From NCBI GenBank assembly GCA_001512665.1, contig LFSF01000049.1, positions 1-58,257 on the forward strand: 58,257 bases of DNA, given 5' to 3'. A model generated the notes under the pieces. That model saw nothing but the letters and a program-made list of their open reading frames with translations, was not told the DNA's origin and did no database searches. Positions within the stretch are counted from its first letter, which is position 1. Every line of letters starts with the position of its first letter. Source of the stretch: Clostridiales bacterium DTU073 (GTDB lineage Bacteria; Bacillota; Peptococcia; DRI-13; DTU073). A program made the translations under genes and the position numbers. Shown in pieces: positions 1 to 37,693 of this stretch.

Positions 1-36
1 CAAAAACGGACAACCTTCCTTATGCTTCTCCTTCCA

Positions 37-248
37 GAGAGGAGCTGATGTGGGTGTGCGTTTTATTGCGAAGTTCAGCTAAACTGACTTCACGACGGCG
101 AAGTAAGAAAGCTGAGAGACTGACAGGAGGTCAGGCTCAACCCTCGCAGTACAAGGAGGTACATCGAGGGTGGTCAGCTTTCTCCTGAGCCAAGTGTTAG
201 TCAGTTCTGCACTGAGCTCAAAAACGGACACCCACATCAGCTCCTCTC
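37..248 (+). ncRNA. Large structured ncRNA, raiA-motif-like, copy A
   Basis: 27-bp closing helix with one mismatch (37-64 with 221-248). Internal helices AACTGACT/AGTCAGTT (82-89/199-206), AGAAAGCTGA/TCAGCTTTCT (106-115/174-183), CTGAC/GTCAG (120-124/130-134), CCCTCG/CGAGGG (141-146/165-170). Aligns with a second copy at 36933-37155 with compensatory changes. Family name is from memory; strand inferred. Confidence 0.7.
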
Positions 249-251
249 CTC

Positions 252-746
252 TTATAGTTCCTTCGCCGCCAAAGGACCCCGCGAAATCACTATTTTGCCT
301 GTCCGCACAATCTCTACAATACCATGATCTCTCAATACTTCACATAAAGCATCAATCTTATCCTGAGAGCCGGTTAATTCAATAACCATGGTCTCCCGAT
401 TAACATCCACAATATTCGCCCGAAAAATATCCACTATATCAACTATTTCCGAACGTTTTTCTGAATTTGCCTTAACCTTAATCAAAACCAATTCGCGTTC
501 CAGAGAGTCAATCCGCGTTAGATCAACAATCTTAATCACATCTACCAACTTAGCTAATTGATTAGTCACCTGTTCAATTTCTAAATCATCACCATTCACA
601 ACAATTGTAATTCTGGTCATATTTGGTTCTTCTGTATATCCTGCAGCAATACTCTCAATATTAAAAGCCCTCCGACTAATTAACCCGGAAATTCGGGTCA
701 ACACACCAGGTCTGTTTTCTACCAACACAGATAAGACATGAGCCAT
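252..746 (-). CDS. ilvN: Acetolactate synthase small (regulatory) subunit, ACT domain
   Basis: MAHVLSVLVENRPGVLTRISGLISRRAFNIESIAAG motif; 164 aa. Confidence 0.95.
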   Translation of the reverse strand: MAHVLSVLVENRPGVLTRISGLISRRAFNIESIAAGYTEEPNMTRITIVVNGDDLEIEQVTNQLAKLVDVIKIVDLTRIDSLERELVLIKVKANSEKRSEIVDIVDIFRANIVDVNRETMVIELTGSQDKIDALCEVLRDHGIVEIVRTGKIVISRGPLAAKEL

Positions 747-817: not shown

Positions 818-1207
818 ACAAACACATGAGTTCGCCGGATGATCGCGGATGCAAGTACCGAAAGGTCGTATCCGAGGAAAGTCCGAGCTCCATAGGGCAA
901 AGTGCTGGGTAACACCCAGTGGAGGCGACTCCAAGGATAGTGCCACAGAAACATACCGCCGATGACGGACCATTCCGTACAGGTAAGGGTGGAAAGGTGA
1001 GGTAAGAGCTCACCAGCAATCAGGTGACTGGTTGGCTAGGTAAACCCCACTTGGAGCAAGACCGAATAGAGAAGCCATGGAACTGCCCGTTCCGCTTCCG
1101 GGTTAGGTCGCTGGAGGTGTCGAGTAATCGGCATCCTAGATAGATGATCATCGCCCCGTTTTACGGGGTACAGAACTCGGCTTACAGGCTTACTCATGTG
1201 TGTTTGT
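818..1207 (+). ncRNA. rnpB: RNase P RNA, type A-like
   Basis: Conserved blocks GAGGAAAGTCCGAGCTCC, CACAGAAACATACCGCC, GGTAAGGGTGGAAAGGTG, GGTAAGAGCTCACCAG, ACAGAACTCGGCTTACAGGCTTACTCATGTG; ends pair (ACACATGAGT/ACTCATGTGT). Confidence 0.95.
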
Positions 1208-36617: not shown

Positions 36618-36872
36618 CTAACGGTGATACATTAGTCCGGAAATATCTCCATCCAGGCATATTTCATCTGTAGTTATATTACAAATTTCCAAATCCTTGC
36701 CGGTAATTTCAATTTCTCCAGTATTTACCGAAACTCTGATTTTCCCGGTAGTGTATTCAATAATACCTCGATGATTCTCAATCACCAACTGCAAATTACC
36801 AATGAGCGTGACTTTAGGTAAATTATAGATAATTTCTTTGGGCAGCTCTAAAAAATGGGTTATTTTTTCCAT
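36618..36872 (-). CDS. yqfC: Sporulation protein YqfC
   Basis: LELPKEIIYNLPKVTLIGNLQLVIENHRGIIEYT. Confidence 0.92.
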   Translation of the reverse strand: MEKITHFLELPKEIIYNLPKVTLIGNLQLVIENHRGIIEYTTGKIRVSVNTGEIEITGKDLEICNITTDEICLDGDISGLMYHR

Positions 36873-36932
36873 CTATATCCCCTCACTTACCTAATAATTT
36901 ATGCCCACATTCCCAAAAACAGAACAAAAAAC

Positions 36933-37155
36933 CCGTTTGATTGCGAGATACAGCTGAACAGACTTTACGATGGGGAGGTGATAAAGCAGAGAAACTAACA
37001 GGATGTTAGTTTCAACACTCGCAATAAAGAGGTCAGGGGACACACCGCTTGTTTACAAGTCGACCTTGTCGCGGAATGTCCCCAACGTATACATCGAGTG
37101 TTCTGCTTTATCCCGAACCAAGTTTAGTCTGTTCCTGTATTGAGCACAAAACGTT
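36933..37155 (+). ncRNA. Large structured ncRNA, raiA-motif-like, copy B with an expanded loop
   Basis: Helices GAACAGACT/AGTCTGTTC (36956-36964/37126-37134), ATAAAGCAGA/TCTGCTTTAT (36981-36990/37102-37111), GAAACTAAC/GTTAGTTTC (36991-36999/37005-37013), ACACTCG/CGAGTGT (37015-37021/37095-37101). Aligns to copy A with compensatory changes. Confidence 0.7.
37029..37083. repeat. REP-like palindrome inside the variable loop of copy B
   Basis: GAGGTCAGGGGACAcaCCGC ... GCGGaaTGTCCCC symmetrical stem with inner ACAAG/CTTGT. Confidence 0.65.
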
Positions 37156-37693
37156 AAAAGGTATACGGCATATTTCTGCGCCGTAAAGCCTTCGGTTTCT
37201 GTAAAATCTCACTCCAAATAACAGCCTGTTTTAAATCTACTCCTGTGAACATTGACCCTTTCGCATTAGCAATTTGAGGCTCTCTGTTCACCGCAACAGG
37301 ATTAGATTTAGTATAAGATTTACGGTCTATTTTTTTAGCTCGTCTAATGGGAACTACAGGTTTAACTTGTTTAACTCGATCTGTTTGTTCAACTCGTGTT
37401 ACTTGCTCTGTTGGTTCACTGCGTAGTTCCTGTTTGCTGGAGCGTTCTTCCGCAAGAAATTCTTCAACCCCTAAAAACTTCCCCAGAATTTCCTCTAAGC
37501 TTTCAAGTTCTGTGTCCCCTTTTCTCTTCTCCAGCGAAGGGCTCTGCTCTTCCTGTAGATACGGCATACCAGCCGGTTGCTCCATCTTCCGTGCTACTCT
37601 TCTCCGCGGAGAAGTTCTTTCCTTGCCTCGCTGTTTATCTTTTGCCGAACGATAAACAATATAAAGAAAAATTAATAAACCTATAAAATCCAA
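37154..37693 (-). CDS. Hypothetical protein, N-terminal TM anchor and charged low-complexity region
   Basis: MDFIGLLIFLYIVYRSAKDKQ...; located upstream of yqfC in the operon. Confidence 0.65.
   Translation of the reverse strand: MDFIGLLIFLYIVYRSAKDKQRGKERTSPRRRVARKMEQPAGMPYLQEEQSPSLEKRKGDTELESLEEILGKFLGVEEFLAEERSSKQELRSEPTEQVTRVEQTDRVKQVKPVVPIRRAKKIDRKSYTKSNPVAVNREPQIANAKGSMFTGVDLKQAVIWSEILQKPKALRRRNMPYTF

Follow-up and report, generated by a model that had tools for sequence, protein, structure and literature searches.

A probable MITE-like palindromic DNA element behind ilvN in Clostridiales bacterium DTU073, with a conserved folded body and strongly covarying helices

Results

The ilvN locus and its palindromic element

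The window, by which we mean the whole stretch of DNA analysed here (58,257 nucleotides of contig LFSF01000049.1 from Clostridiales bacterium DTU073), begins with a repeat element and ilvN, which encodes the acetolactate synthase small subunit (252–746, minus strand; NF008864, 221.4 bits). A class A RNase P RNA (827–1200, plus strand, 308.5 bits) adjoins ilvN. The element is a full type-1 copy of 212 nt (37–248), given here on the minus strand, which is co-directional with ilvN. On the ilvN strand it starts 3 nt past that stop codon (252–254). Two outer palindromic arms (37–57 and 228–248) pair over 21 bp, and a further 6 bp (59–64 with 221–226) follow after a single mismatch, which together make up the 27-bp closing helix reported in the preliminary description of this locus. 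Inside it lie a stem with internal loops and a three-way junction bearing hairpin 1 (116–138), with the fixed loop ACAGGAnGT, and hairpin 2 (140–171), with CAnGGAnG in its loop; in other copies hairpin 2 is an insertion site for palindromes. The conserved core, modelled as R1, spans 168 nt (59–226) and scores 188.6 bits. The outer arm varies between copies, and the complementary arm varies along with it.

The element is nearly symmetric between the two strands. As RNA, window positions 1–300 have a predicted fold of −131.4 kcal/mol (z = −8.9), which was equalled by none of 200 shuffled sequences, and the fold predicted for the minus strand of the element is strong. As single-stranded DNA, the 212-nt element folds on both strands (z = −13 and −12). 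Neither recognisable terminal repeats beyond its own palindrome nor a target duplication were found at 37–248. A U-tract following the stem was also sought, but positions 1–36 contain no T-run on the minus strand, so that the window copy lacks this mark of an intrinsic terminator. A reading frame through the element is open in the window copy, but by eye the like frame stops early in another copy (L076) and is therefore not conserved.

The first 10 nt of the window are the end of a second, partial tandem copy, the remainder of which lies on contig C32. As the first 62 nt of the window are identical to the last 62 nt of C32, the two contigs join within a tandem pair of elements. The assembly thus breaks at the repeat, and contig C50 likewise ends within a copy. 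On C32, downstream of the window copy, the start of the next gene resembles, by eye, that of the addB-like gene which relatives have after ilvN.

The preliminary description compared the element with a second copy at 36933–37155. All four of the compensatory helix comparisons that it quoted are present in the sequence, as are the conserved loop strings. The core of this second copy occupies 220 nt (36934–37153, minus strand, 140.2 bits); it has lost the outer 21-bp helix and has a strong RNA fold (z = −9.0). It lies directly 3′ of a 179-aa gene (37154–37693), whose stop codon is at the edge of the core. This gene, situated between the second copy and floA, has no NCBIfam match, and its last codons apparently cross what is outer-arm sequence in other copies. 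Hairpin 2 of the second copy is interrupted by a palindrome (GGTCAGGGGACACACCGC...GCGGAATGTCCCC, at approximately 37031–37083) that is smaller than the element. In the form GGGGACACACCGC...GCGGAATGTCCCC, it lies in hairpin 2 of several copies (window 37031–37083, L035, L036, L039 and others) and also away from a full core, in the downstream flank of L056; it is possibly a separate REP-like family.

Distribution and relation to known families

A DNA search of the genome returned 28 pieces, and the R1 covariance model 24 matches, of which 18 were full-length (E < 1e-16). By this model there are about 20 copies in the 1.67-Mb genome. The helix comparisons with the second copy hold, but it is far from being the sole other copy. 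Among 45 other genomes of the class, 11 contain 1–16 copies by covariance model, nearly all of them full-length (158–172 nt). A broader model, R2, matched 41 of 250 genomes in a sample drawn evenly across the phylum, about a sixth, and its matches were nearly always 160–175 nt long. Searches of plasmid, phage and viral-contig sequences gave no match with the probes used. Truncated and interrupted copies are common. Copies in the window's family are old, and some occupy the same loci in different genera.

The window was scanned with Infernal cmscan against 4227 Rfam families at gathering thresholds, and the surroundings of the two copies at E ≤ 10. At gathering thresholds the scan recovered RNase P and two tRNAs, and left the element unmatched. 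At E ≤ 10 there was no match in window 1–400, and 36800–37300 gave one chance-level match to Trp_leader (13.6 bits against a cut-off of 41). The preliminary description had likened the element to the raiA motif. We found nothing over the cut-off of the raiA model (RF03072, gathering cut-off 101.3 bits) anywhere in the genome; its best score, 9.1 bits, was away from the element. With no relevant covariance-model match at the element, raiA and all other Rfam families were ruled out as its identity. In the literature on palindromic repeats, MITEs and terminators the family is undescribed at the level of titles and abstracts. We conclude that the family is real and apparently undescribed.

Conserved loops and freely changing stems

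A wide alignment of 46 copies bears out the large conserved structure with covariation proposed earlier. Standard pairs make up 92.4% of paired cells, and two-sided changes occur at 54 of the 59 pairs, counts to be read in the light of the relatedness of copies from the same genome. The covariation score was 0.604, compared to 0.194 for shuffled alignments and at most 0.095 with slid partners. While the stems change freely as Watson–Crick pairs, the loops are constant: ACAGGAnGT in hairpin 1 and CAnGGAnG in hairpin 2 are fixed phylum-wide, as is CTTnnCGAAG opposite AG..TAG in the stem. The element thus has the conserved, covarying helices that are looked for in a structured RNA.

Is the pairing kept in RNA or in DNA? 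A structured RNA tolerates G-U pairs, and does so asymmetrically with respect to A-C, which is G-U read on the other strand. The control was RNase P from 26 genomes of the same class, the sole internal RNA control family. In RNase P, 15.9% of flanked pairs were G-U and 0% A-C; the ratio of G-U cells to double changes was 0.85, and that of A-C to G-U was 0.01. In the element, 0.7% of the flanked pairs in its own consensus fold were G-U, the ratio of G-U cells to double changes was 0.07–0.09 (about ten times rarer than in RNase P), and that of A-C to G-U was 0.30–0.52. By cells, G-U still exceeds A-C (96 against 48); as distinct events the two are close (33 and 30). The alignments were fitted to the plus strand, which favours plus-strand G-U; any error in the asymmetry is thus towards too large a value. 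Neither the tolerance of G-U nor the strand asymmetry of an RNA was seen in the element. As an outside comparison, 89.5% of resolved AU–GC switches in Bacillus cereus terminators pass via GU (PMC5381666). The pattern fits pairing that is maintained at the DNA level, whether the folded strand is under selection, the arms are matched to each other by template switching, or both apply. It bears little sign of an RNA strand, and by itself leaves room for use as a transcript.

Carriers, ends and nesting

As in MITEs, the copies are dispersed and come without a conserved gene. In the relative G176, eight near-identical copies sit in a 271–272-nt unit whose ends, GACTCCACTGCGAAAA and (inverted) GATTCTACTGCAAAAA, are terminal inverted repeats. 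Whole copies of this unit are mostly flanked by direct repeats of ~6 bp (AATCAT, ACTTTT, ATTATT, AACTAT, AATTAC, AAAACT, AACATT), and a few are without them. The end sequence occurs 79 times, allowing up to two mismatches. The G176 unit is a MITE, with the terminal inverted repeats and target-site duplication of which none was recognised at the window copy. No parent transposase with matching ends, or autonomous element, was found at the seven G176 loci examined. No helper gene recurs as a neighbour of the copies, and neither a transposase nor a loop-binding protein was identified.

The same body is carried differently elsewhere. The G162 body is part of a unit that sits at intrinsic terminators and whose ends are different (TCAGACTGTAGACAAA); the G142 body is found in either orientation next to another repeat. 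The window's family has a second subtype that is enclosed by the arms of the first, and hairpin 2 harbours small palindromes both there and in G176. From this subtype nesting and the hairpin 2 insertions, it follows that palindrome-in-palindrome nesting is frequent in the element family. The core-bearing units L236–L239 (G162), L203 and L206 (G153 and G075) are located at intrinsic terminators, and each is flanked on either side by a near copy of the complete terminator hairpin, as though the target that was duplicated had been this hairpin itself. A REP/RAYT origin was considered and rejected, as the Y1 transposase (PF01797) is absent from the genome. The assembly is 96.4% complete, and the copies are old.

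Placement behind stop codons

For counts of placement, genes were taken as the longest open frames rather than from a trained gene finder. With the strand turned, copies of the window's family in its four positive genomes follow a co-directional gene by 29 to 3 (p = 3e-6), a count that includes copies at shared loci, which are not independent. Sixteen of the 29 start 0–6 nt past the stop codon, on the strand opposite to the plus strand of the preliminary description. Since copies follow stop codons, the strand co-directional with ilvN would be the co-transcribed one.

In other genomes of the class the orientation bias was weaker (21:7) and one of 21 copies was close to a stop codon; in the phylum-wide sample there was no orientation bias (13:13). 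Stop-codon targeting as a general property was rejected, as it is absent from that sample. Given that the bias is weak or absent elsewhere, closeness to the stop codon looks like an outcome that arose after insertion in the window's lineage. Transposition alone leaves the placement in the window's family unexplained, which suggests a retained function.

The ilvN locus itself varies between relatives. At this site G000 carries the complete element and G006 a nested pair, type 2 within type 1. The copy of G002 has lost internal sequence and keeps a perfect 16-bp stem; G003 and G004 lack the element. In most other families of the order, judged by eye, an apparently ordinary terminator lies shortly past the ilvN stop codon. 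The C-terminus of ilvN is much alike with and without the element; that the element supplies the ilvN stop codon was ruled out, because relatives without it have the same last residues. Another shared site is represented by L040 (G000) and L063 (G002). At L182 (G001), which has no detectable core, a short perfect hairpin lies directly past the ilvN stop codon; it may be what a deletion left behind, or a hairpin unrelated to the element.

Discussion

The best explanation of the data above, which we consider probable, is that a family of palindromic, MITE-like DNA elements, non-autonomous and with a conserved body of ~170 nt, has left an old copy at 37–248. Homology of the body is what would place the window copy in this family. 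Like MITE-type elements in general, the family is short, dispersed and palindromic, without a conserved gene, and in G176 it has terminal inverted repeats and ~6-bp target duplications. It differs from them in that the body, and not the ends, is conserved phylum-wide, the ends varying by carrier, and in that the window copy has lost recognisable ends.

How might such an element work? Its functional form would be a folded single strand (or a cruciform) of DNA, with the fixed loops read by a putative protein. The body would be moved by a transposase supplied in trans, working on the terminal repeats of its current carrier. Movement may have ceased in the window's family, and the flanks there may have eroded down to the palindrome, bringing the element to the stop codon. 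The intergenic hairpins that remain would persist, perhaps as 3′-end hairpins of the upstream mRNA. Tentatively, and at less than even likelihood, the ~170-nt core may itself be the mobile entity, a structure of single-stranded DNA whose three-way junction bears two like loops (CAnGGAnG) recognised by a putative protein. Such a core would have been adopted by transposon-like carriers unrelated to one another, or would insert into them, across the phylum and often within other palindromes.

Several known systems share parts of this description. REP/BIME sequences with RAYT (Y1) transposases are likewise intergenic palindromes, often 3′ of genes and nested or tandem. REPs are 20–40 bp (PMC3733652). 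The present element is, by contrast, ~212 nt with a three-way junction, in a genome without a Y1 transposase. The bcr-type interspersed repeats of the Bacillus cereus group are dispersed and have a large predicted fold, and in this the element is like them, by description rather than by sequence. Integron attC sites are folded single strands with variable stems that lie directly behind stop codons. The element resembles them, again by description, in its folded strand, its variable stems and its strand-linked placement at stop codons, but its copies lie behind chromosomal genes such as ilvN, and no array was seen.

An alternative is that the element acts as a structured RNA in the 3′ UTR, co-transcribed with the upstream gene (here ilvN, on the minus strand), where it protects or ends the mRNA, and that the DNA repeat serves only to spread it. 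The 29:3 orientation in the window's family, with 16 of 29 copies within 6 nt of a stop codon, argues for this, as do the perfect 16-bp stem retained by the internally deleted G002 copy and the strong RNA fold of the minus strand. However, per double change the element has about a tenth of the G-U pairs of RNase P, and there is no excess of A-C, the combination that reads as G-U on the minus strand. With no U-tract past the stem at the window copy, and orientation balanced at 13:13 across the phylum, we regard this explanation as rather unlikely.

The copies could instead be neutral fossils, in which template switching from arm to arm during replication keeps the palindrome perfect without selection. 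Template switching at quasipalindromes is an established process; homogenisation of the arms is expected to give double changes with few intermediates, as seen here, and the many truncated or interrupted copies are consistent with it. It would not keep the unpaired loops and internal loops, which are conserved phylum-wide, and this makes the neutral explanation improbable.

Also highly improbable is a single non-coding RNA gene on the plus strand, converging on ilvN, as first proposed, even when it is taken as a new class and stripped of the raiA label. The strong fold and covariation are in its favour, together with the slight excess of G-U over A-C cells on that strand (96 against 48). Counted as events the excess shrinks to 33 against 30, despite the fitting to the plus strand and compared to an A-C/G-U ratio of 0.01 in RNase P; G-U is avoided with little strand asymmetry, the element is a dispersed repeat that is multi-copy, transposed and nested, and its orientation in the window's family is tied to the opposite strand. 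Membership of the raiA (ModT, RF03072) family, whose RNA is very abundant and is predicted to form two pseudoknots (PMC11706538), is already refuted: the length near 210 nt, the rich structure and the restriction to Bacillota are alike, but the element is a multi-copy palindromic repeat with no covariance-model match at E ≤ 10 and none over the cut-off in the genome.

Covariation is ordinarily taken to prove a functional RNA, yet here a family absent from Rfam combines very strong covariation with the mark of DNA. A pipeline that relies on compensatory changes would take it for a new class of RNA. The two readings can be told apart by setting G-U against A-C, with a known RNA from the same genomes as the reference, and other candidates are open to the same comparison. 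For the family itself, the question is why carriers of different kinds have retained one folded body with fixed loops, and which protein reads it.
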